Shown one piece after another: positions 622 to 28,754 of a DNA stretch of 38,711 nt. Origin of the DNA: Actinomycetota bacterium (GTDB lineage Bacteria > Actinomycetota > Actinomycetes > S36-B12); the NCBI GenBank assembly GCA_947449035.1, contig CANFQC010000024.1:1-38711 (forward strand), given 5' to 3'. Position 1 is the stretch's first letter; every line of letters starts with the position of its first letter. The notes below the pieces were generated by a model. That model did no database searches, had not been told where the DNA came from, and saw only the letters and a list, made by a program, of their open reading frames with translations. The position numbers were made by a program, and so were the translations under genes.

Positions 622-1899
622 TCAGACCTTGCGAGGCATGCGGTACTCGCGGGTATCACCCTCGGAACGGGCAGCCGCCAGGCCTTCCTCGCATAGTCGA
701 TTGAGGGAGCCATGCAGGTACTGCACGCCGATCTCGTTACGACCGAAGATCTGGGTGTGTCCACCGGTGGCGCCCACGCCCTTCTGCACGCCGTACTGAG
801 TGAGGTAGTCCTCGTTGTAAACCACGTCGTAGAACCAGTCGCGCATCACCTCTAGCTCATGCTGCACCTCGTCGTTGATCTCGTGACGCACGACAATGCG
901 ATGCTCCGTGATCGACTCGTCAACCTTGGTGGTCGGCAAGCAGAGCGCAACGGTCATCCGCTGGCGCCAGCCACCGGCAATCGAGAAGCCGGGGAAGGTC
1001 CAGAAAATCGGACCCACGTGGTGCGAGGGATCCCACTCGGTCTCGGGTCCGTCGATCACTTCGTCAATGGTGCGGAGCGCGAAACCCAGACGCTCATGCG
1101 GACCGAAGCCGTCGAACACCATCGTGTTGCCGTGGTTCACCGTGAACACGGTGTTCGGATGCGTGGCTGCAAAGTGATACGCCTCGAGGTAGCCCTCGAT
1201 GGTCGCCTTCCAATTGGGGCCTGGCATCTGCCGTGAACTGAAGACGTGGCACTCGTCGAGCTTGAGCGAGGCCAGTTGCGGACCCCACTCCCCCAGCCAC
1301 GAATCGATGTCGATGGTCAGCCCCGGAGTCAGGCATACCCAGATCACGCCGTGCTTCTCGACGACCGGAAGCTGGATTAGTCCACGCTGTGACTTATCGA
1401 AGTCACCGAAGGTGCTCTCACCGTAAATGCCCTTCAACTCGCCATCCATGCCGAATGACCATGCGTGATACGGACAGGTAAGTGCGCGTGCTTCGCCGCG
1501 ACCTTCGCACAGCAACGCACCACGGTGGCGGCATACGTTCATCATCGCGTGCGCGACACCCTTGGCATCACGTGTGATGACAACGGGCACGCCGACGGCT
1601 TCAGTCGACTTGAAGGTGTTCTTTCCGACCAGTTCGGCGGAGAGAGCGAGCGGAAGCGGGATCCTCGTGAAGACCAGGTTCACCTCAGAGGCGAAGACCT
1701 CCGGGTCGAGGTAGTTGTCGATCGGCTCCTCGAGGGTCGACTCGGCCTGATCGGTGGTCTTGGCCTTCAGGTGCACAGTGAGACGGCGCATCATGTCCAT
1801 CGCCTGCTCGCGGGCCTGGCCATCGAGTACATCGCTGCGCAGCCACTTGGGCACTTCCGGCTCGGCGATCTCGATGTCGTCGGCGATCATCTCGGTCAT
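622..1899 (-). CDS. Rieske non-heme iron oxygenase, alpha subunit
   Basis: A 425-residue terminal oxygenase. The Rieske cluster is bound by C123, H125, C142 and H145. The mononuclear iron motif follows at E239-A-Y-H242-FAAT-H247, and D364 in YNEDY is the probable third iron ligand. The residue that bridges the two metal sites is Glu239, where most ring-hydroxylating oxygenases have Asp; carnitine oxygenase CntA also uses Glu. The start ATG has AGGAGG six bases upstream. It is a tandem paralogue of the gene at 1-518 and has its own TCTAGA site 34 bases upstream, so it may be transcribed apart from the genes before it. The electron-transfer partner must be encoded elsewhere. Family certain, substrate unknown. 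Confidence 0.93.
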   Translation of the reverse strand: MTEMIADDIEIAEPEVPKWLRSDVLDGQAREQAMDMMRRLTVHLKAKTTDQAESTLEEPIDNYLDPEVFASEVNLVFTRIPLPLALSAELVGKNTFKSTEAVGVPVVITRDAKGVAHAMMNVCRHRGALLCEGRGEARALTCPYHAWSFGMDGELKGIYGESTFGDFDKSQRGLIQLPVVEKHGVIWVCLTPGLTIDIDSWLGEWGPQLASLKLDECHVFSSRQMPGPNWKATIEGYLEAYHFAATHPNTVFTVNHGNTMVFDGFGPHERLGFALRTIDEVIDGPETEWDPSHHVGPIFWTFPGFSIAGGWRQRMTVALCLPTTKVDESITEHRIVVRHEINDEVQHELEVMRDWFYDVVYNEDYLTQYGVQKGVGATGGHTQIFGRNEIGVQYLHGSLNRLCEEGLAAARSEGDTREYRMPRKV

Positions 1900-10457: not shown

Positions 10458-10570
10458 TGAAATGTGACGAGTTGAGCCGTAACAATGTGGTGACGAAATG
10501 CCCCCATTGCCCCAGATCTTGGGAATGAATCCCCCTGCCGCAGGCGGGGCCGCGCGGATAGACTTACTGT

Positions 10571-10586
10571 TATCGAACTATCGAAA
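10571..10586 (+). promoter_or_regulatory. Tandem 8-base repeat before acyl-CoA dehydrogenase
   Basis: TATCGAAC TATCGAAA in direct tandem, just after a TTACTGT box (10564-10570) that could be a -10 element, about 40 bases before ATG 10624. The rest of the 233-base divergent gap shows nothing else I recognise. Confidence 0.3.
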
Positions 10587-10623
10587 CGGGCCACCACCCG
10601 ATTCACCTGCCCCCGGGAGACAG

Positions 10624-11724
10624 ATGACCAGCGAACTCGCCCTCGCCAGCCTTGATCGCGAGGAGCTTGCCGAGCTTCGTCTCACCGTCCGAGCCGCGGC
10701 CACGGAGTCGGGCTACCCCGAGCGAGTTCGTGAGCTTGAGGCACGCGCAGACAACCCTGGATTCGATCCGGCGCTGTGGGCACTCCTCTCGGAAGAGATC
10801 GGCCTGGCAGGCGTGGGCCTGCCCGAGGAAGTCGGCGGCCTCGGCGGCCTCGCCGAGATCCTGGCTGTCACCGAGGAACTCGGTGCCACCCTTGCCCCAG
10901 TTCCCTTCCTGACCAGCACGGTTATCGCCGGCCAGATTCTGGCCGCCGCTGGCGGCCCTGCGCTCCCCTATCTCGAGCGCATTGCCGGCGGAGAGATCGC
11001 CGCACCCGCTATTACCGATGCCCGCGGACGCTTCACTGCCGATGGCGTAGGAGTAGCCGGCACCGATTCCTCAGTAGACGGCAGCGTGCGTTTCGTTCCC
11101 TACGGCGCTTCGGCAGCCTTCTTCGTGGTGGCAGCGCGCACCGATGCTGGCATCGATCTCTTCATCGTCGAGGCTGCTGATGCATCAGTCGCGGCACTCC
11201 CCTCGCTAGACTTCAGTCGTCCGTCGGCAACCGTCACCCTCTCGTCTTCCACTGCTACTCGCCTGACCCAAGGTGGCGCCGGACTCGCTGCACTCGAGCG
11301 CGGCCTCGACATCGCGCTACTAGCCATCGGCGCAGATCAGCTCGGCGGAGCGCAGTTCTGCTTCGACATGACCCTCGAATACATCAAGCTGCGTCGTCAG
11401 TTCAATCGCGAGATCGGTAGCTTCCAGGCCGTCAAGCACCGCATGGCAGACGCACTGATTCAGGTCGAGATGGCTCGCGCCGGACTCGAGCGAGTGACCT
11501 GGGACCACTCCGAGAACCTCTCGGCCGACGCTGCGGTGGCAAAGGCCTGGGGCTCAGATGCCTTCAATGCCCTTGCCGCAGAAGCGATTCAGCTGCACGG
11601 CGGCGTGGGCTTCACGTGGGAGCACGATGCGCATCTGTACTTCCGTCGCGCCCGATTCGATGCCGCGTTCCTGGGTGATGCCGCTTTTCATCGCGAACGC
11701 GTCGCAACCCTTCTCGGCTGGTAA
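10624..11724 (+). CDS. Acyl-CoA dehydrogenase-family protein, short partner type
   Basis: A 366-residue acyl-CoA dehydrogenase-like flavoprotein. Visible are the N-terminal helical domain with GLPEEVGGLGG, and the C-terminal QFNREIGSFQAVKHRMAD and AIQLHGGVGFTWEHDAHLYFRR motifs. I find no Glu at the usual base positions (neither MCAD-like before GT nor the IVD-like LER position), so it may be the non-catalytic partner of a heterotetramer of the FadE28/FadE29 kind, with the dehydrogenase at 13114-14367 as a candidate partner. ATG 10624 is chosen for its GGGAG four bases upstream; upstream in-frame codons from 10498 lack one. Ends four bases from the convergent beta-propeller gene. Confidence 0.88.
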   Translation: MTSELALASLDREELAELRLTVRAAATESGYPERVRELEARADNPGFDPALWALLSEEIGLAGVGLPEEVGGLGGLAEILAVTEELGATLAPVPFLTSTVIAGQILAAAGGPALPYLERIAGGEIAAPAITDARGRFTADGVGVAGTDSSVDGSVRFVPYGASAAFFVVAARTDAGIDLFIVEAADASVAALPSLDFSRPSATVTLSSSTATRLTQGGAGLAALERGLDIALLAIGADQLGGAQFCFDMTLEYIKLRRQFNREIGSFQAVKHRMADALIQVEMARAGLERVTWDHSENLSADAAVAKAWGSDAFNALAAEAIQLHGGVGFTWEHDAHLYFRRARFDAAFLGDAAFHRERVATLLGW

Positions 11725-13113: not shown

Positions 13114-14367
13114 CTAGTTCTTGCTGAGCTGCGAGAATGGCGCCTTATCGGCCCGATGCTCGGCAGGAAGCCCGAGTACGCGCTCAGCAATGATGTTGCG
13201 CTGAATCTCGTCAGTGCCGCCGGCGAGGCGATAGCCCGGTGCGCCGAGCACGTGATCAGACCACGCGAACTGGCCCCACTCGCCGGTGTCGGCGACGAGC
13301 GCAGACCCAAGCATGTCGGCAGCCGCGTTTCCGATGCGAACAAGATTGTCGGAGGCAATCAGTTTGCCGAGCGAACCTGCCGGACCGGGCTTGTCGCCTG
13401 AGGCGTTAGCGCGTGCAACCTTGGCCACGACTGCTGCATGCAGGCGGGCGCGCACGTACACATCGGCAAGTTCTTGACGGACCACCGGATCGTCGTTAAG
13501 ACCTAGAGCCTTGGAGAGTTCGACCAAATCGGCCACGGTGCCGCCCTTGCGACGATGGCCTGAGCCAGATGACGAACGCTCGAAGCCGAGGGTTGCCATC
13601 GCGACCTTCCAGCCATCATTGACATCGCCGATGCGCATGGAGTCAGGAATACGAGCACCGTCGAAGAAGACTTCGTTGAAGCTCGAGGGGCCGCTCATCT
13701 GACGAATCGGACGGATCTCAATACCCGGGGAATCCATCTTCACCAGGAAAGCGGTGATGCCACCCTGCTTGACGACATCAGGGTCAGTGCGCGCCAGTAT
13801 GAAGCCGTACTCGGCGAACTGAGCGTTAGACGTCCAGATCTTCTGGCCGTCGATGACCCACTCATCGCCATCGCGCACGGCCTTGGTCGACAGGCCGGCC
13901 AGGTCAGAGCCGGCACCCGGCTCGCTGAACAGCTGGCAGCACAGCTCATCGGTACGCAGGAATGCACGCGCATACTTCTCGCGCTGCTCAGGAGTGCCGA
14001 AGACACTGACGGCCGCGCCGACCAGGCCGGTTGTCACCGAGATGAGTTCCGATGACGGGGGCACGTCGAACTCGCGCTCCTCGTCGGCGAATGCCACGGC
14101 GTACACGCTGGGCAGGCCACGACCACCGAACTCCTCGGGCAGGGTCAATGCACCGAAGCCGGCGTCGAAGCGGGCTTTGCGGTACTCGCGCACGCGGTCG
14201 AGGTGAGCGCGCTCGTCTTCCTCACTCTTGGCGATGAAGATCTGGAGCTCGGGATCACCCTCTCCCCAGACACGCACCTCTTCGGTGCGCGGCTTTGCGA
14301 CGGTGGCGAGCCAGGCGCGCACATCGGCGCGGAAAGCCTCGAGCTGGGCGGGATCGAGCTCGCTCAC
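13114..14367 (-). CDS. Acyl-CoA dehydrogenase
   Basis: A 417-residue FAD-dependent acyl-CoA dehydrogenase. The flavin/substrate signature CQLFSEPGAGSDLAGL, the IDGQKIWTSNA strand and the C-terminal GGTDEIQRNIIAERVLGLP are clear. The MCAD-type catalytic Glu position is Gly here (AGGT); a Glu in LGFER sits where isovaleryl-CoA dehydrogenase has its base, so I take that as the catalytic residue. The start is GTG 14367, in a GTGA overlap with the thiolase-like stop and with AAGGAAGG upstream; the ATG at 14400 is inside the upstream gene. Last gene of the 17167-13114 operon. Confidence 0.92.
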   Translation of the reverse strand: MSELDPAQLEAFRADVRAWLATVAKPRTEEVRVWGEGDPELQIFIAKSEEDERAHLDRVREYRKARFDAGFGALTLPEEFGGRGLPSVYAVAFADEEREFDVPPSSELISVTTGLVGAAVSVFGTPEQREKYARAFLRTDELCCQLFSEPGAGSDLAGLSTKAVRDGDEWVIDGQKIWTSNAQFAEYGFILARTDPDVVKQGGITAFLVKMDSPGIEIRPIRQMSGPSSFNEVFFDGARIPDSMRIGDVNDGWKVAMATLGFERSSSGSGHRRKGGTVADLVELSKALGLNDDPVVRQELADVYVRARLHAAVVAKVARANASGDKPGPAGSLGKLIASDNLVRIGNAAADMLGSALVADTGEWGQFAWSDHVLGAPGYRLAGGTDEIQRNIIAERVLGLPAEHRADKAPFSQLSKN

Positions 14368-15539
14368 GAGTTCGCACCTTCCTTGACGAGAACGGTGCAT
14401 GCCGAGATACCGGGCGCTCCGTAGACATGGGTAAAGCCAATACGTGGATTATTGGGCACCTGCTGGCCGAGCGCACGTCCTTGCAACTGGCGCATGACCT
14501 CGTGCACCTGACGCAAGCCCGAAGCGCCCACCGGCTCACCGTTCGCGAGGCAACCACCGTCGGTGTTGACCGGAAGACGGCCATTGATCTTGTAATCGCC
14601 GTTGAGGTAACCGGCGCCCTGCTCACCATTGGCGCACAGTCCGGTCTCGCCGAGGTGGATGATCTCGGCACCGCTGTCGGTGTCCTGCAACTGTGCCACC
14701 TGAACTTGATCGGGTGTGATGCCGGCGGCGTCGAAAGCAGCCTTCGCCGCATCGATCGACGGACTGGTGCGCTCACCCGGGGACAACCAGGGCGAGAACA
14801 CCTCGAAGGAACCAGGGCGACGACCGCGCAGCTCGACAGCCGCGAGTCGAATCGGGTTCTCGCAGAGTTCGAATGCACGCTTTCCGCGTGCGAGTACGAG
14901 TGCGACCGCACCTGCGTCAGGCGAGCAGAACATGAAGCGGGTGAGCGGCGCATTGATCATGTCGGACTCGAGAGCTTCCTCGACCGACACTGGCTTGCGC
15001 CGCCAGGCCAGCGGATGCGCGGATCCGTAATCGAAGGCTTTCTCAGAGACATAACCGAGGGTGCGTTCATCGATGCCCTGCTCGTGCAAGTAGCGCTTGA
15101 TCTTGAGCGCGAAGTAGGACGTGGTGACCATCATTCCGGTCTCGCCGTACCAGCCGCCGATGCCGTAGCGCGCAGGTGACGCAGCGAAGGCGCCACGTGC
15201 GTGGTTGTCGTAACCGACGACCACCGCGACGTCGCGTCCCTCGGCGATCAGACCGTTGCGGGCCGTCATCAGCGCGACGCCGCCAGTCGCACAGCCATTC
15301 TTGACCGTGATGAAGGGAAGACCCGTGAGACCCATACGCGCAACCATGTTGTCGGGCTTGGTCTCGCCATTCGTGCCACCGACCGCGAAGTCGACGTCAT
15401 TCCAGGTGATGCCACAGTCGGCCAGTGCCTCGCGCATCGCCTGCTCGGCAAGCTCTTGATCCTCGCCATCGAAACGACCGAACTCGGTCATGCCACCGCC
15501 GACAATGTAGACCTCATTATCGATATTCGCGCCGCTCAT
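14364..15539 (-). CDS. Thiolase-like protein (lipid-transfer / Ltp2-like, possible retro-aldolase)
   Basis: A 391-residue thiolase-superfamily protein. The first catalytic Cys is in place (C83, NGCATGG), but the GHP histidine motif reads GEP (E335 in ANGEPVGASG) and the C-terminal CxG motif is replaced by SACTVL. These changes argue against ordinary thiolysis. Y373 in HVYGAPG is a candidate catalytic tyrosine, as tyrosines serve in the Ltp2 aldolase. It overlaps by ATGA with the DUF35 gene upstream, the arrangement of the Ltp2/ChsH2 pair that cleaves a beta-hydroxyacyl-CoA by retro-aldol reaction in steroid side-chain breakdown. The superfamily is certain; the aldolase activity is inference. 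Confidence 0.88.
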   Translation of the reverse strand: MSGANIDNEVYIVGGGMTEFGRFDGEDQELAEQAMREALADCGITWNDVDFAVGGTNGETKPDNMVARMGLTGLPFITVKNGCATGGVALMTARNGLIAEGRDVAVVVGYDNHARGAFAASPARYGIGGWYGETGMMVTTSYFALKIKRYLHEQGIDERTLGYVSEKAFDYGSAHPLAWRRKPVSVEEALESDMINAPLTRFMFCSPDAGAVALVLARGKRAFELCENPIRLAAVELRGRRPGSFEVFSPWLSPGERTSPSIDAAKAAFDAAGITPDQVQVAQLQDTDSGAEIIHLGETGLCANGEQGAGYLNGDYKINGRLPVNTDGGCLANGEPVGASGLRQVHEVMRQLQGRALGQQVPNNPRIGFTHVYGAPGISACTVLVKEGANS

Positions 15540-15934
15540 GAGACGGCCTCGAATCCGTAGGTGTGCACAACCGTGCCATCGTCATTGGTCCAGGCCTTGG
15601 CGAGGGCAAGGCGAACAGGCTCGCCAATCACCCATTCGGTCTTATGAAGCAACCAACCCTCGACGATAACCGAGCCAAGATCGACGTAGCCGATGCTGAA
15701 TGGATGAAACTCGTCAGTGCGGAACGGCGCCTTCGGAGCGAAGTTCTGGGTAGTCCATGACCACACTGTGCCCTCGGTGGGGAGTGCGACAGTGCTGACG
15801 TCGACGCCCGCGCACATCGGGCATGAAGAAGCAGCCGGGAATACCTGTGCACCGCACGATTCGCATGCCGAGCCTTGCAAGGCCACCGGATCAGTGGAAG
15901 CGAACAGGCTGGCATCGACGAGCTGAATGCTCAC
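15536..15934 (-). CDS. DUF35 zinc-ribbon / OB-fold protein
   Basis: A 132-residue protein with an N-terminal rubredoxin-like zinc ribbon (C24-ES-C27 and C38-PM-C41) followed by an OB-fold (EGTVWSWTTQNF ... FSIGYVDLGSVIVEGWLL). DUF35 proteins bind acyl-CoA and form complexes with thiolase-like partners; in the ChsH2/Ltp2 system the domain anchors the aldolase. GTG 15934 has AAAGGG seven bases upstream and lies 13 bases after the oxidoreductase stop; the longer reading frame up to 16123 runs through that gene and is rejected. The stop overlaps the thiolase-like ATG. Confidence 0.9.
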   Translation of the reverse strand: MSIQLVDASLFASTDPVALQGSACESCGAQVFPAASSCPMCAGVDVSTVALPTEGTVWSWTTQNFAPKAPFRTDEFHPFSIGYVDLGSVIVEGWLLHKTEWVIGEPVRLALAKAWTNDDGTVVHTYGFEAVS

Positions 15935-15947
15935 GGCATGGCCCTTT

Positions 15948-16955
15948 CTAGTCGGAGAGGCGAACGAGGGCCTTGCCCACGTTCGTACCGGAGAGCAAAC
16001 CGGCCAGGCCTGCGCCGGCATTCGCGATGCCTTCGACGACGGTTGCGCGGTCGACGAGCTCGCCACTGGAGAGCCAATCGCTGACCTTCGCCTCGAACTC
16101 GGGGCGTAGATCCTCGAAGTCACGCACGATGAAGCCCTGAACCGTGATGCGGCGCAGGATCATCTCGATCATGACTGCAGTGCTGGGCTGGGGCGTTGTG
16201 CCGAAGTTCGAGATCGCACCGCACATCGAGACTCGGCCATGGATCTTCATGTTCTGGAATGCCGCTGCCATCTGCCAGCCGCCGACATTGTCGAAGAAGA
16301 GATCGATGCCCTCGGGAGCTGCCTTCGGAAGCTCATCGGAAAACTCCGCATCGCGGTAGTTGATGACGTAGTCGAATCCGCATGCATCAAGCAGCCACTG
16401 GCACTTGTCAGCGCCGCCGGCACTGCCGATCACATGGCTCGCGCCGGAAAGTCGAGCGAACTGGCCGGCCATCGACCCGACTGCTCCGCCAGCACCGGAG
16501 ACGAGAACGACCTCGCCGGCCTGGAGCTTGCCGACCGGGAAGAGCCCGGCGTAGGCGGTGAAGCCGGTCTGGCCAAGGGAACTCAGCCAGTTGATTGCAG
16601 GCGCAAGGGTGGTATCGCACACCGTTGCCGCGACATCGTCGACGACGGCGTACTCGCGCCAGCCCATGCGGTGGCGCACGGTGGCACCTACGGGAAGCTT
16701 GTGGGACGCAGACTCGATGACCACGCCGATTGCAGAGCCGTCGAGCGGACCACCGATGCTGAAGTTGGTCGTGTACTGCTTCTCGCCCGGATCCATGCGG
16801 CCACGGGTTGACGGATCAAGGCTCATGTACTGATTGCGAACGAGCGCGTGACCTGCGGTCAGTTCGGGAAGCTCAATTTCACCCAGGGTGAGGTCTTCGG
16901 CGACGAAGGTGTGCTGGGGGCGCCTGGCCAGAAGGACAGCGGTAGTCGACTTCAC
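15948..16955 (-). CDS. NADP-dependent oxidoreductase, PTGR/CurA branch of the MDR superfamily
   Basis: A 335-residue zinc-free medium-chain reductase. The N-terminal YMSLDPSTRGRM motif is typical of prostaglandin reductase/CurA-like enzymes. The nucleotide motif is SGAGGAVGSMAGQ (near residue 153), and VGGWQM and ISNFGT follow as in the family. Such enzymes reduce the double bond of alpha,beta-unsaturated carbonyl compounds with NADPH. Starts at GTG 16955 in a GTGA overlap with the 71-residue gene. In an operon with acyl-CoA dehydrogenase and DUF35/thiolase genes it may act on an enone or enoyl intermediate. Confidence 0.9.
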   Translation of the reverse strand: MKSTTAVLLARRPQHTFVAEDLTLGEIELPELTAGHALVRNQYMSLDPSTRGRMDPGEKQYTTNFSIGGPLDGSAIGVVIESASHKLPVGATVRHRMGWREYAVVDDVAATVCDTTLAPAINWLSSLGQTGFTAYAGLFPVGKLQAGEVVLVSGAGGAVGSMAGQFARLSGASHVIGSAGGADKCQWLLDACGFDYVINYRDAEFSDELPKAAPEGIDLFFDNVGGWQMAAAFQNMKIHGRVSMCGAISNFGTTPQPSTAVMIEMILRRITVQGFIVRDFEDLRPEFEAKVSDWLSSGELVDRATVVEGIANAGAGLAGLLSGTNVGKALVRLSD

Positions 16956-22918: not shown

Positions 22919-23893
22919 CTACTTTCGACGCGAAGCCGTGCGCACTGCGAGTGCGACGGCAACGATCAGTGCGACACCGTTGAACAGGTTGGTGACGTAG
23001 CTCGGGGCACCAGCCAGCTGCAGACCCGAGACGCCGGTAGCCAGCAGGAAGATCGCGACCAAGGTGCCGAGCACGTTGACTCGTCCGGGACGAATCTGAG
23101 TGGCGCCAAGGAACACCGCGGAGAAGGCGGGCAGCAGGTAGCCGTCGCCGACGTTCGGTGTGGCCGTGCCGATAGTGGCTTCCAGGGCAATGCCTGCGAA
23201 GGCCGCGACGAGACCGGAGGTTACGAATGCGATGGTGGTCACGCGACCGATGCGCACACCGGCGAGGCGCGCTGCAACGGGGTTGCCGCCCACTGCGTAG
23301 AGGTAACGGCCACCCGGCGTGTACTCGAGTACCCACCACATGATCAACGCGATGACGGCTGCGTAGTACACCGTGTAGGGCAAGCCGAGGAACTGGCCGC
23401 GTGCGAAGTCAAGGAATGGTCCGTAACCCTCGACACTCAGCACGATCTGGGAGTTCTGGGTGATGGCATAGGCCACCGCAATAAGAATCGAACTCATACC
23501 CAGCGTGCCGATAAAGGAGTCGACTTTTAGTTTGACCACCACTACGGAGTTCACGAGGCCGATGATCAATCCGAGGATGAGCGAGCCCACGGCTGCCACG
23601 ATCACGCCGTGGTGGTTGGCAAGTGCCCAGGCGGTGAAACACACCGACACCGATACGGTTCCGGCGACAGTCAGGTCGAATGCACCGGCAGCAACGGGGA
23701 TGATCAGACCGAGGGCCACCATCGCAGCGATTGCCTGGAAGCTAAGGATCTGCTTGAGGGTGCTGACCTGAAGGAAGAGATCAGGAATCCACAGCGAGAA
23801 CACGATGATGAGCACTGCCCACACGTAGAGGCCGCTGAAGCGGTCGAAGCCGAGATTGATTCGGCGACGCGGTGCTGCTTGAACTTCTGACAT
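22919..23893 (-). CDS. ABC transporter permease, RbsC/BPD_transp_2 family
   Basis: A 324-residue integral membrane protein with about nine hydrophobic segments. The family pattern is clear: FQAIAAMVALGLIIPVAAGAFDLTVAGT (helix with the DLSVG-like turn), VVVKLKVDSFIGTLGMSSI, and GGNPVAARLAGVRIGRVTTIAFVTSGL, the loop that contacts the ATPase. Such permeases work as homodimers importing sugars or related polar compounds. GGAG lies eight bases before ATG 23893. It follows the ATPase gene by 47 bases. No binding-protein gene lies next to it; the candidates are at 7843 and 9248. Confidence 0.93.
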   Translation of the reverse strand: MSEVQAAPRRRINLGFDRFSGLYVWAVLIIVFSLWIPDLFLQVSTLKQILSFQAIAAMVALGLIIPVAAGAFDLTVAGTVSVSVCFTAWALANHHGVIVAAVGSLILGLIIGLVNSVVVVKLKVDSFIGTLGMSSILIAVAYAITQNSQIVLSVEGYGPFLDFARGQFLGLPYTVYYAAVIALIMWWVLEYTPGGRYLYAVGGNPVAARLAGVRIGRVTTIAFVTSGLVAAFAGIALEATIGTATPNVGDGYLLPAFSAVFLGATQIRPGRVNVLGTLVAIFLLATGVSGLQLAGAPSYVTNLFNGVALIVAVALAVRTASRRK

Positions 23894-23940: not shown

Positions 23941-25458
23941 CTAGGCGGCTGAATCGCTGCTGTCGCGGCCGATGGATGCTGCGGTGATGTTGTCGTTGGT
24001 GAGCGTGGCGCCCTTGAGCACGTCAACGGCCTTGCCGCGACGCATGATGATGACGCGATCGCACACCCGAACGAGTTCCTCGTGATCGGTCGAGGCCACG
24101 AGTACCGCGGTGCCCTGGGCTGCAGCCTCATCGACCAGGCGGTGGATGTCAGCCTTGGCGCCCACGTCGACGCCCTGAGTCGGCTCATCGAGGATCAGGA
24201 CGGAAGGCTCCTGACGCATCCAGCGAGCGATGACCACCTTCTGCTGGTTGCCGCCGGATAGCTGGGCCATCGTGTACTCGGAATTGCGCGGACGCACGTC
24301 AAGCTTGTCGAGCCACTCATTGACGTCGGAGCGCTCGGAGCTACGACGAAGGAATCCCATGCTCATATGCGCAGAGGGATTAACGATCGTGATGTTCTCG
24401 CGCAGGGTTTGGTCCATCAGTGACGCATTCGCATGGCGCTCCGCCGGGACGAGGGCGATGCCACGCTCGATGGAGATATCCGGACGGCACTGCGGCAGCG
24501 CCTCACCATTGACGATGACCTCGCCGCCTCGATCATGACCACCGAACACAAGTGCGGCGACCTCTTCGCGGCCAGAACCTGTGATGCCGGCAATTCCGAC
24601 GACCTCGCCGGCGTGAACGGTGAGATCGAGACCATGCACCGCTGCGCCTGCAAGACCCTTGAGCTCAATGACGGGCTTGCCGTGCTCACGAGCATCGGCA
24701 TCAGTGACGTGCTCCTCGATCTTGCGACCGACAACGAGCTCGATGAGTTCTTCCTCGGTGAGACCCTCAACCGGACGCGTGATGATGTGCTTCGCATCGC
24801 GCAGCACCGTGACGGAGTCGGCCATCTCGAAGACTTCGTCAAAGTGGTGGGAAACGAAGAGAACGGCAATTCCGCGGTCAGCCACGCCCCGCACGAGCTT
24901 GTACAGGCGCTGAGCTTCAGCCGCGGGCAGGTTTGCCGTGGGCTCGTCAAGGATGAGCATCCGGGTCTCGCTGCCGCGAGTCGACATCGCGCGGGCGATT
25001 GCTACCGCGGTGCGCTCCGACATGGCGAGGGCTCCGACGGGCATGCGCACGTTGATGTCGTAGCCCAGTTCGAGGAGCGCCTCGCGAGCAGCCGCGCGCT
25101 CCTTCTTCCAGCTGATGGTCTTCGTGGGGCCGGTGATGTAGCCCTGGCCGATGGCCATGTTGTCGACCGCATCGAGGTTGGCCACGAGGCCGAGATCCTG
25201 GTGAACGAAGCGCAGGCCAACGGACTCGCTGGCCGTGGCGTTCGAAAAGGCAAGCTCTTCGCCGCCGACCGTGACAGAGGTGCCGGGCTCAGGCTCGTGA
25301 AAGCCCGCGAGAATCTTGATCAGGGTCGACTTGCCACAGCCGTTCTGGCCGACGAGTGCGCGAACCTCGCCGGGCTGGACGTCGATGCTCACGTGATCGA
25401 GCGCGGTCTGGCCGCCGAAGATCTTCGTTGCGTCGCGAACCGACAGTACCGTGGTCAT
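23941..25458 (-). CDS. Sugar-type ABC transporter ATPase with two nucleotide-binding domains
   Basis: A 505-residue RbsA/MglA-like ATPase. Domain 1: Walker A GQNGCGKST (from residue 38), Walker B LILDEPTANL and H-loop SHH; its signature is degenerate (AMSERTAVAIARAM). Domain 2: modified Walker A GITGSGREEV, which is usual in this family, signature LSGGNQQKVVIARWM and Walker B LILDEPTQGVDVG. It energises the permease downstream. ATG 25458 has GGAGG four bases upstream. The 145-base gap before it (to 25603) is A/T-rich around 25499-25540 and probably holds the promoter. Confidence 0.95.
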   Translation of the reverse strand: MTTVLSVRDATKIFGGQTALDHVSIDVQPGEVRALVGQNGCGKSTLIKILAGFHEPEPGTSVTVGGEELAFSNATASESVGLRFVHQDLGLVANLDAVDNMAIGQGYITGPTKTISWKKERAAAREALLELGYDINVRMPVGALAMSERTAVAIARAMSTRGSETRMLILDEPTANLPAAEAQRLYKLVRGVADRGIAVLFVSHHFDEVFEMADSVTVLRDAKHIITRPVEGLTEEELIELVVGRKIEEHVTDADAREHGKPVIELKGLAGAAVHGLDLTVHAGEVVGIAGITGSGREEVAALVFGGHDRGGEVIVNGEALPQCRPDISIERGIALVPAERHANASLMDQTLRENITIVNPSAHMSMGFLRRSSERSDVNEWLDKLDVRPRNSEYTMAQLSGGNQQKVVIARWMRQEPSVLILDEPTQGVDVGAKADIHRLVDEAAAQGTAVLVASTDHEELVRVCDRVIIMRRGKAVDVLKGATLTNDNITAASIGRDSSDSAA

Positions 25459-25603: not shown

Positions 25604-28132
25604 CTACTCAGAATCGAGTACGGCGTGCGCTGCAGCCAGACGTGCGACCGGCACGCGGCTCGGGGAACACGACACGTAGTTGAGTCCGAGCTTCTCGCAC
25701 AGAGCGATCGAGGCGGGATCGCCGCCATGTTCGCCGCAGATACCAAGCTTGATGTCAGGGCGCGCGGACCGTGCCTTGGCGGCGGCGATCTCCATCAGGC
25801 CGGCTACGCCCCACTCGTCGAGCTCGGAGAACGGGCTAACGGTCAGCAGTCCGCGCTCAAGGTAGGTGCCCAGCATGCGGCGCTCGACATCGTCACGCGA
25901 GAAACCGTAGGTGAGCTGCGTGAGGTCGTTCGTGCCGAAGGAGATGAACTCGGCCCATTGGGCGAGCTGATCGGCCATGAGTGCTGCACGCGGGGTCTCG
26001 ACCATGGTGCCGATAGAGAAGGGCACCACGATGCCGGTGCGCGAGGCGACTTCCTGATTAACCCGGCGGATAAGACGCAGGCTCATCAGCAGCTCATCGG
26101 GAATCGACACGAGCGGGATCATCACCTCAAGTGTCGGTGCAATGCCGTGCTGGGTGTTGACGTCGATCCACGCGTTAAACAGACCTTCAACCTGAGCCGG
26201 GTACAGGCCTTCGTGGATGAGTGCGAGACGAACGCCGCGCACACCAAGCATCGGATTCTCTTCGTGCAGGCTCTCGGCCATCTTGGCCCAGTTCTCGTCG
26301 ACCTCTTCGTGCTCGGTCGGGAGGAACTCGTGCATCGGTGCATCGAGAAGTCGCACAGTGACCGGACGATCGCCCACAGCGAGCAGAAGATCGCGGAAGT
26401 CTTCGCGCTGTGCCTCGGCCAGCGCCGCGAGTGCTAACTCTTCTTCCTCTGGGCTGGAGGAGAGAATCACGCGGCGGATAAACGGAAGTCGGTCACCGAG
26501 AAACATGTGCTCAGTGCGACACAGGCCAATGCCCTCTGCGCCGTTGTCCATCGCGACGCCCGCGTCAACACCGGTATCGGCGTTGGCACGAATTCCCAAG
26601 CGGCGAACATCATCGGCCCAGTTGAGAACGGTCGACAGCGCAAAAGACGGCTCGGGACGCTCGATCGGAACCGCGCCCACATACACCGCGCCTGCGTCGC
26701 CATCAACAGAGATGACATCGCCGCGCTGCAGCACATGCTCACCAGCGGTCACTGTTCCGGCAGCACGATCAATGCGCATTCCGCCTGCACCACAGATCGC
26801 GGGGCGGCCCATGCCGCGTGCAACAACTGCCGCGTGCGAGGCCGAACCGCCAGTGACGGTGAGAATTCCGGCGGCAGCCATCATGCCGGGCAGATCTCCG
26901 GGAGTTGTCTCGGCGGCAACGAGGATGACGGAGTCGCCGGCCTCGGCCATCTCGCAGGCCTCTTCACTCGTCAGTGCGATGCGACCGACAGCAGCACCGG
27001 GCGATGCCGCAAGACCAGTGACCAGAACTACTTCGTGGCCGGTCAGGCGCGGACGCGGATGCATGAGCTCGAGAACATGAGCGGGACGGATCGCCTCGAC
27101 CGCGGACCGCTCATCGGTAATGCCACGAGTTGCAAGATCGACAGCAAGGCTGGTGGCAACGCGAGCGCTCGTGCGATTGAGTTCTTCAAGACCCGCGAGC
27201 ACGAGTCCCTCAGGGCCGTACTCGAAGTCGACGAGGACGACAGTCTTCAGGCGCCCTTCGAGTTCGGCGAGAACTCCGGTGAGCATCGCAACGCCGCCGG
27301 GGAGCTTCGAGAGCGGATGCCCGATCGACGGACGTTCACCGCTGACGCGAACACCGTGGCGGAAGCCGCCGGTGGGGGCGAACTGGCCGGTTGAGAGGTC
27401 ACGCGAGATCGCGTGACCGTGCCCTGCTTCGTCGTGATCGGTGACGACGACAGTTTCGAGATGCAGGCCGAGAGGGAGATCAGCGGGAAGCTGCTGGGTA
27501 CGACGTGCTCGGGCGGCGCGGGGGGAGGTCCAGCGCGCGAGCATCGCAGCGGCGGCGTCGGCGAGCTGCTGATTGACCTCGAGCGGGAACTTGTTCTTGC
27601 CCTTCTCATTGCACAGTGCGATGAGCGGCTCGATGCGATGAGCGGGGTCATCAAAGTCGAGGCCGAGTGCGGAAATTTCATCTCCGGGAACCTCAAGCGC
27701 GAATTCTGCGATGAAGCTCGCGGTTTTCCACCACGCGACGGCGAGATCGGCTGCCATTCTGGGGCGCAGGCCCTCGGGGATCCGGCCGTTCGCGAGCCCG
27801 ATGGCCACGAGGTCCGGCGGCAGGCCCGCGGCGTCGAGTGGTGCGCTAGCGCTCAACCGGAGAAGCAGAATTCCGCCATCGGCGGTGGTGGAACCGACAG
27901 TACGGCCTGCAATCGTCTCGAGCAGATTGACGGCTGCTTCGGCGCGATCCGCTGACACCAGACCCGGCACATTCGGCACCGGGATAGTCAGACCGGTGGC
28001 GACCGGAAGTCCGAGCCCCGCGAGTGTTTCCATCTGCACGCCGCGCGTGCACAGGGATCGCACGTCAAGACCGCGTTCAAAGCCCTTGCCGAACGGTACG
28101 AGTCCGACGTCGTCAATCGGTGAGATGACCAC
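25604..28132 (-). CDS. PEP-utilising enzyme, pyruvate phosphate dikinase-like, with a degenerate ATP-grasp half
   Basis: 842 residues, close to PPDK length. The phosphohistidine domain is intact (TGGSASHAAVVARGMGRP, H433) and so is the C-terminal PEP/pyruvate barrel (GLCRTEHMFL, FGTNDLTQLTYG, CGEHGGDP with C799). The N-terminal third aligns weakly with the ATP-grasp region: the KG near the start reads RG, the TGVAFTRNPxTGE motif is reduced to GHAISRDLSTGQ, and DIEFT...LQTR to VDFEYGPEGLVLAG without the Gln/Arg pair. So ATP/phosphate chemistry may be lost or changed. The GTG start lies seven bases after the stop of the 204-residue gene, so they are coupled. True PPDK cannot be excluded without alignment. 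Confidence 0.85.
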   Translation of the reverse strand: MVISPIDDVGLVPFGKGFERGLDVRSLCTRGVQMETLAGLGLPVATGLTIPVPNVPGLVSADRAEAAVNLLETIAGRTVGSTTADGGILLLRLSASAPLDAAGLPPDLVAIGLANGRIPEGLRPRMAADLAVAWWKTASFIAEFALEVPGDEISALGLDFDDPAHRIEPLIALCNEKGKNKFPLEVNQQLADAAAAMLARWTSPRAARARRTQQLPADLPLGLHLETVVVTDHDEAGHGHAISRDLSTGQFAPTGGFRHGVRVSGERPSIGHPLSKLPGGVAMLTGVLAELEGRLKTVVLVDFEYGPEGLVLAGLEELNRTSARVATSLAVDLATRGITDERSAVEAIRPAHVLELMHPRPRLTGHEVVLVTGLAASPGAAVGRIALTSEEACEMAEAGDSVILVAAETTPGDLPGMMAAAGILTVTGGSASHAAVVARGMGRPAICGAGGMRIDRAAGTVTAGEHVLQRGDVISVDGDAGAVYVGAVPIERPEPSFALSTVLNWADDVRRLGIRANADTGVDAGVAMDNGAEGIGLCRTEHMFLGDRLPFIRRVILSSSPEEEELALAALAEAQREDFRDLLLAVGDRPVTVRLLDAPMHEFLPTEHEEVDENWAKMAESLHEENPMLGVRGVRLALIHEGLYPAQVEGLFNAWIDVNTQHGIAPTLEVMIPLVSIPDELLMSLRLIRRVNQEVASRTGIVVPFSIGTMVETPRAALMADQLAQWAEFISFGTNDLTQLTYGFSRDDVERRMLGTYLERGLLTVSPFSELDEWGVAGLMEIAAAKARSARPDIKLGICGEHGGDPASIALCEKLGLNYVSCSPSRVPVARLAAAHAVLDSE

Positions 28133-28139
28133 GTACGCG

Positions 28140-28754
28140 CTATCCGTGGTTTCCGGAGACGAGCTGCTCCTCGAGTGCTTCGTCTTCCTGTCGTGACATG
28201 CCGATAGTCAGCAGCAATTCCTGGTGCAAGTGCATCCACACCGTGTGGTACGAGTCAATGAGCGGCGATGCGAGCCACGCGTTGTCACCCTCATCGAGCT
28301 TCTCGAGCGCCTCTGTCAGGCGAGCGCGGTAACCGGAGAGCGACGGCACGTCTTCTGCGAAACGCTTGAGCAGCGGCGCAATGGAGTCGTCGATGTCGTC
28401 GAGACGGTCGCGAATCTCAGCGTCGTAGCCCGGATCGGAGTGATCGTTCACGCTGCCGTCAGGGCGCACCTGCCAGGCAGTGCACAGATCGCGCAGCGCG
28501 CGGTTGACAGGAAGGAAGCGGTGGAAGGTCGCCATGATGCGCTCACGCTCAGGTGCATCAGCGGGCAGGCAGAGAATCTCACCGACGAAGGCGGTGCCCG
28601 CAGGGGTCGGCATCATCATCGGACCCTTGATCAGGAGCAGGCCTGCCTCCGCGAGTGACTGCTGCTCGGCAGAAGCCTCACCGCGGGCCATGCCCCGGAC
28701 CACGATGGACACGAGTGCGGTGCGCTCAGCGTCGTTGATGACCACGTCAGACAT
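28140..28754 (-). CDS. Unknown 204-residue protein coupled to the PPDK-like gene
   Basis: A soluble, acidic, mostly helical protein that I do not recognise as a named domain. It starts with a helix-turn-like stretch (ERTALVSIVVRGMARG, then LAEAGLLLIKGPMMMPTPAG resembling a small winged helix), followed by long helices rich in Arg/Asp/Leu. GGAGG lies four bases before ATG 28754, and the stop is seven bases before the PPDK-like start. From memory, mycobacterial truncated ppdK genes also neighbour a conserved gene of about 200 codons, which would support a working pair; this needs checking. It could serve as a subunit or a nucleotide-half substitute. Confidence 0.75.
   Translation of the reverse strand: MSDVVINDAERTALVSIVVRGMARGEASAEQQSLAEAGLLLIKGPMMMPTPAGTAFVGEILCLPADAPERERIMATFHRFLPVNRALRDLCTAWQVRPDGSVNDHSDPGYDAEIRDRLDDIDDSIAPLLKRFAEDVPSLSGYRARLTEALEKLDEGDNAWLASPLIDSYHTVWMHLHQELLLTIGMSRQEDEALEEQLVSGNHG

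Follow-up and report, generated by a model that had tools for sequence, protein, structure and literature searches.

A PPDK-derived protein with retained PEP and His sites, a rebuilt ATP half and a VadK-type partner in actinobacterial acyl-CoA catabolic loci

Introduction

VadK (Rv1127c) of Mycobacterium tuberculosis is a PPDK-derived histidine kinase with the operonic partner Rv1126c, which work of 2025-26 presents as an innovation of pathogenic mycobacteria and genera related to them (PMC13400623). It is tied to protein partners rather than to a substrate; in the published model it binds methylcitrate enzymes, and vadK lies close to the methylcitrate cycle genes in M. tuberculosis (PMC13400623). 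The same study mentions in one line, with no analysis, full-length mycobacterial PPDKs without the motifs critical for kinase activity (PMC13400623).

In PTS Enzyme I, PEP phosphorylates a histidine on a swivelling domain and the phosphate then moves onward, as we propose for the protein described here. Kinases of the ACAD and Lva type use ATP as donor and are APH-type enzymes. In ACAD10/ACAD11 and LvaA/LvaB/LvaC, which serve the phosphorylation of 4-hydroxyacyl-CoA, a phosphotransfer enzyme is closely tied to an acyl-CoA dehydrogenase, which is the likeness to our locus; the kinase is of a different type, and the comparison is one of analogy only.

Here we describe, in a window of 38,711 nucleotides from a freshwater actinobacterium, a complementary and apparently PEP-only form, which is widespread in Streptomyces, Frankia and freshwater actinobacteria and occurs with a VadK-like partner. 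The original prediction had considered the pair a candidate for an undescribed phosphotransfer system. This holds in part: the VadK/Rv1126c pairing is already known (PMC13400623), but no description of the PEP-only form, of the partner linkage outside mycobacteria or of the catabolic operon was found in open-licence papers, and nothing relevant was found there on PPDK pseudoenzymes or the PPDKs of Nanopelagicales.

Results

A PPDK-like protein encoded beside a small partner

Both ORFs are present on the minus strand, the partner gene upstream and separated from the PPDK-like gene by 7 nt.

25604..28132, minus strand: PPDK-like protein, type A (barrel kept, ATP site lost), 842 aa, GTG start
28140..28754, minus strand: partner protein, 204 aa, ATG start; no Pfam family; relative of the mycobacterial VadK partner gene
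27158..28093, minus strand: remodelled ATP-grasp half, spanning residues 14-325; each of the ten canonical ATP-site residues is exchanged or missing
26675..27028, minus strand: swivelling phosphohistidine domain, residues 369-486 (Pfam and alignment)
26834..26836, minus strand: codon of H433, equivalent to the catalytic H455 of C. symbiosum PPDK (MAFFT and hhalign)
25619..26635, minus strand: PEP-binding barrel, residues 500-838; R539, R594, D597, E712, N735, D736 and C799 intact

The 842-aa protein shares with canonical PPDK (C. symbiosum 1KBL, TIGR01828) the three-domain layout, the His and PEP-barrel residues and about 36% identity. Its structural model (mean pLDDT 87) matches solved PPDKs in Foldseek, which indicates that the PPDK fold is retained. 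Pfam recognizes PEP-utilizers (the mobile His domain) and PEP-utilizers_C (the barrel; PF02896 at 8.4e-72), and finds no PPDK_N match even at E<=1. The protein differs from canonical PPDK in its ATP-site residues, all ten of which are gone, in its score against the PPDK equivalog TIGR01828 (661.5 bits, below the cut-off of 843), and in its partner and catabolic operon. Further, it has no match to PF05524 (PEP-utilisers_N, HPr-binding), and no RNA families were found in the window.

The ATP site is lost and the His and PEP sites are kept

The protein was compared with a reference of C. symbiosum (Cs) PPDK and 18 actinobacterial PPDKs; 59 relatives were aligned with MAFFT, and profile-profile hhalign served as the second method. 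Ten ATP-site positions were scored (Cs numbering: K22, R92, M103, R135, E279, D280, D321, E323, Q335 and R337); these, like the PEP-site positions, were chosen in line with the PPDK literature. That literature includes Ye et al. 2001, as cited in PMC13400623, and R95 and E324 are ATP-binding residues of Flaveria PPDK (PMC5507339).

None of the ten residues is kept in the window protein, and none persists as a conserved residue across the 59 aligned relatives (0/10 in both cases). By MAFFT and hhalign, K22 is exchanged for R30, R92 for S94, M103 for P105 and R135 for K136; moreover, D321 corresponds to L300, E323 to D302 (a conservative change), Q335 to G314 and R337 to E316, and the loop Q277-D280 is deleted in the profile alignment. 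For K22, R92, D321, E323, Q335 and R337, both methods agree on the lack of identity. In contrast, both methods recover every catalytic residue of the other two domains: H455 (H433), R561 (R539), R617 (R594), D620 (D597), E745 (E712), N768/D769 (N735/D736) and C831 (C799). H455 and the PEP residues are invariant across the aligned relatives, save one row with end gaps, and about 60 type A orthologues form one clade with conserved PEP and His residues and lost ATP residues. The original prediction that the H433 domain and the PEP barrel retain their catalytic motifs is thus borne out, and the alignment to C. symbiosum PPDK that it had suggested, run by sequence and profile, finds the ATP contacts not retained.

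The loss extends over the entire ATP half. Of the positions that canonical PPDKs hold invariant, the ATP half keeps 21/105, the His domain 32/38 and the barrel 86/102 (NBD versus barrel, Fisher p=1.6e-21). An extra loss of ATP residues beyond this general level is not significant (0/10 kept versus 21/105, P=0.096), and the argument is therefore one about the loss of the whole domain's chemistry. D321, Q335, R337 and the loop 277-280 are absent from nearly all type A orthologues, with R337 still an arginine in at least one relative. Since the exchanges of K22 to R/H and of E323 to D seen in relatives are conservative, and an arginine is located two residues ahead of the lost R92, the rebuilt site may conceivably bind some nucleotide or other anion weakly.

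The ATP-grasp motifs had been described as eroded and their half of the protein as decayed; the motifs are indeed gone, but not by decay. Within the window family, dN/dS ranges over 0.01-0.13 in the ATP half and over 0.01-0.10 in the barrel, rough values with dS near saturation in several pairs, and all three domains are under purifying selection. About 30 positions ahead of the His domain are fixed at non-canonical residues in 60 orthologues, and the former ATP half has the new invariant arginines R92, R200 and R262. Random decay or a pseudogene is excluded by the dN/dS values together with these conserved new residues. Because the ATP half combines purifying selection like that on the barrel with new invariant residues, it is rebuilt rather than rotting. 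In three loci (L097, L103, L106), the PPDK-like gene is split over two or more frames, by frameshift or assembly error.

Type A proteins mirror VadK

Like VadK, the window protein is PPDK-derived, keeps the swivelling His domain and, by its residues, should be unable to run the PPDK reaction; the two also share the partner family and a link to acyl-CoA/propionate catabolism. However, VadK retains the ATP half without the PEP barrel, whereas the window protein retains the barrel without the ATP site; of the VadK hallmarks, an intact ATP half and an absent barrel are not found in the window protein, and an Rv1126c-type partner is. The partner gene lies downstream in mycobacteria and upstream in the window. 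In the mycobacterial loci used as VadK type, the R-H spacing of 313-320 agrees with the 316 between R106 and H422 of VadK, H422 being the residue of its ATP-dependent autophosphorylation. VadK-type proteins keep nearly all ATP residues, including K22 and R92 in 25/25, and are without barrel.

In a His-domain tree (138 columns), type A and VadK type each form one clade. Type A groups with canonical PPDKs and not with VadK, which speaks against sister clades, although the tree is not firm because it has few columns and long branches. Simple truncation does not account for all VadK types, since two proteins display barrel erosion instead. L184 (G330) is full length with intact ATP residues and carries R561 to V, E745 to T and N768/D769 to R/R, and L150 (G125:C101) continues for about 300 residues past the His domain with no barrel match; by sequence, both look like intermediates toward VadK.

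The partner combines a winged helix with a conserved helical bundle

The partner directly precedes the type A PPDK-like gene in 63/63 loci, from Nanopelagicales, Streptomyces, Lentzea, Frankia, Actinomadura, Aeromicrobium and Frankiales, which confirms the proposed coupling of the two genes. The AlphaFold2 model of the partner (pLDDT 94) consists of two parts.

28569..28754, minus strand: N-terminal winged-helix domain, residues 1-62; MarR-type matches, Z 8-9
28194..28559, minus strand: four-helix bundle, residues 66-187; invariant WQ, N-x-H...D and D-S-Y-H-T-V-W-x-x-x-H

The helix order in this model predicts that W94, Q95, N103, H105, D111 and D167-W173 come together at a single bundle end. 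The partner was rejected as HPr or a member of a known family: the window protein has no Pfam match, and its relatives have weak winged-helix matches only. There is no convincing sequence relative in the PDB, the best Foldseek hit has E 0.19, and VIA-align matches to the bundle (Z up to 11.6) are at the level expected of generic helical bundles.

A neighbourhood survey including mycobacterial loci, as originally suggested, places the partner family beside both type A and VadK-type genes. With a profile built from window-family partners, relatives were found adjoining VadK-type genes in Mycobacterium loci, where the family member is, by position, Rv1126c, and also in Nanopelagicales and other actinobacteria. 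Partner relatives further adjoin compact ATP-grasp plus His proteins, roughly 390-456 aa in length. A third donor type, consisting of compact proteins with PPDK_N and a His domain, is encoded next to partner relatives at L158:3116-4372, L159:6005-7171, L162:6295-7662 and L143:4492-7290.

Solitary partners with no PPDK-like neighbour occur in Acidimicrobiia and some other lineages; they branch as sister to the type A partners. Four of six such genomes searched contain a PPDK whose ATP site is intact as far as covered; in the fifth, the PPDK is frame-broken and intact at the residues covered, and no match was obtained in the sixth. Consequently, the partner need not serve only one-sided enzymes. 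Among the loci surveyed, no PPDK with both halves intact shares an operon with the partner; in Frankiales RYN_157 (L079), the divergent neighbour is an intact PPDK. In the PPDKs of five solitary-partner genomes (L172, L173, L174, L175, L176), Val replaces T453, two residues before the catalytic His.

The pair is embedded in acyl-CoA catabolic loci

In Streptomyces, Lentzea, Frankia, Actinomadura and Aeromicrobium, the gene following the type A PPDK-like gene encodes an acyl-CoA dehydrogenase whose start overlaps the PPDK stop as ATGA/GTGA. This holds for 44/44 loci, namely the type A loci from groups other than Nanopelagicales in which the 3' end could be used, leaving out the frame-broken L103, and constitutes a genetic link to one particular acyl-CoA dehydrogenase, which resembles heteromeric IpdE2/PimD types. 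Thiolase/lipid-transfer proteins, ChsH2-type OB-fold proteins, enoyl-CoA hydratase and more dehydrogenases flank or follow in type A loci; neighbours were named after family searches, and the stop-to-stop ORFs of G+C-rich loci include antisense artefacts. The acyl-CoA dehydrogenase does not directly adjoin the pair in Nanopelagicales. The window contains relatives of the pathway genes and an ABC importer, all within about 27 kb of the pair.

23941..25458, minus strand: ABC ATPase (sugar-type), downstream of the pair; linked to it in Nanopelagicales and Actinomadura
22919..23893, minus strand: ABC permease; linked to the pair in Nanopelagicales and Actinomadura
10498..11721, plus strand: acyl-CoA dehydrogenase, about 50% to the gene with ATGA overlap in 44 other loci
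13117..14400, minus strand: second acyl-CoA dehydrogenase, 61-64% to pair-adjacent genes of Actinomadura, Aeromicrobium and Frankiales
14367..15539, minus strand: thiolase/lipid-transfer-type protein, 60-63% to Streptomyces neighbours
15536..16123, minus strand: ChsH2-type OB-fold/zinc-ribbon protein, 40-48% to neighbours elsewhere
622..1899, minus strand: Rieske oxygenase, 46-49% to pair-flanking genes of Frankia

Window positions 622-22850 form a catabolic island with two Rieske oxygenases, an aldehyde dehydrogenase, two acyl-CoA dehydrogenases, the thiolase with its OB-fold protein, 2-oxoacid dehydrogenase-type E1/E2 and a ThuA-like protein. Dehydrogenase- and thiolase-like genes, as read by eye, likewise lie near the VadK-type units of Nanopelagicales.

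Discussion

With a probability of roughly 0.5, we read the pair as a PEP-driven phosphohistidine unit derived from PPDK, from which phosphate leaves via an acceptor site supplied by the partner, within acyl-CoA catabolism. PEP would bind the intact barrel and phosphorylate H433 on the swivelling domain, as the full conservation of the site suggests. Exit to AMP/PPi or ATP would be closed because the nucleotide site is gone, and the remodelled ATP half could act as a docking or acceptor face. Phosphate would then exit through the acceptor site of the 204-aa partner, at the bundle end where the invariant His, Asp, Tyr and Trp are predicted to gather. The unit might switch pathway enzymes by PEP supply, as VadK supposedly does with ATP; alternatively, its output might be the phosphorylation of a pathway compound.

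PEP-only chemistry of the window protein is strongly supported at the sequence level, and phosphate probably passes from PEP to something other than ATP. This agrees with the original prediction, in which phosphate is accepted from PEP and not handed to AMP/PPi: given the conserved site residues, the protein looks able to perform the first step onto H433 and, with the nucleotide site lost, unable to perform the second. As the His domain and the partner are constant and the donor varies (ATP or PEP), provision of the acceptor site by the partner would explain the pattern most simply. The comparison of type A with VadK predicts that the partner, being the common part, is the destination of the phosphate or signal, and type A provides non-pathogenic systems for finding the acceptor. 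Candidates for the final acceptor are a partner residue, an enzyme of the pathway and a CoA ester, and gene coupling favours an acceptor in the acyl-CoA pathway; by analogy, VadK's model would favour regulation, and ACAD10/11 a metabolite acceptor.

Possible, although rather unlikely, is a PEP-dependent metabolite kinase, in which a hydroxyacyl-CoA or an alcohol of the pathway is bound by the remodelled ATP half (or by the partner) and receives phosphate from H433, the product then being used by the coupled acyl-CoA dehydrogenase. The 44/44 ATGA overlap, the conserved catabolic cluster and the new invariant R92, R200 and R262 would suit such an enzyme, and 4-hydroxyacyl-CoA phosphorylation by ACAD10/ACAD11 offers a precedent (PMC12440821, PMC11342911), with LvaA-type kinases as a further analogy. 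However, VadK-type proteins have the partner yet no second substrate domain, VadK is linked to protein partners and not to a substrate (PMC13400623), and the dehydrogenase is of the heteromeric IpdE2/PimD kind. An altered PPDK whose rebuilt site still accepts polyphosphate or a different nucleotide is improbable: its ATP half is retained and constrained, with conservative exchanges at K22 (R/H) and E323 (D), but D321, Q335, R337 and the loop 277-280 are gone in nearly all orthologues, and the genome already has a normal PPDK. This separate copy, with all motifs (G000:C16), leaves the type A copy free to differ. Least probable is a non-catalytic scaffold or PEP sensor, whose PEP-induced shape change would regulate the partner or enzymes without phosphotransfer, as the partner's regulator-like winged helix might suggest, since the catalytic His and all transfer residues are invariant clade-wide, which would be unnecessary in a pure sensor.

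Returning to the PEP-driven phosphohistidine unit, its wider form is a little more tentative than the unit itself: one partner/effector family might be fed by mirror-image PPDK halves, ATP-driven in VadK and PEP-driven in type A. Type A would then be a PTS-like phosphorelay without detectable Enzyme I/HPr, coupled to acyl-CoA metabolism, with the old ATP domain as acceptor dock. Unlike PTS Enzyme I, the window protein is PPDK-derived and without PEP-utilisers_N, and neither HPr nor the Enzyme I N-domain (PF05524) was detected in the genome (97.7% complete).

In this genome, PPDK_N was found in the canonical PPDK only. Four further phosphohistidine-domain ORFs of about 584-598 aa (L185, L187, L189, L190) are encoded there, at G000:C6:62820-66830, C44:13512 and C69:3713. 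A relative of these ORFs, L075:2052-3776, is similar to rifampin phosphotransferase over the acceptor and His parts and lacks an ATP-grasp.
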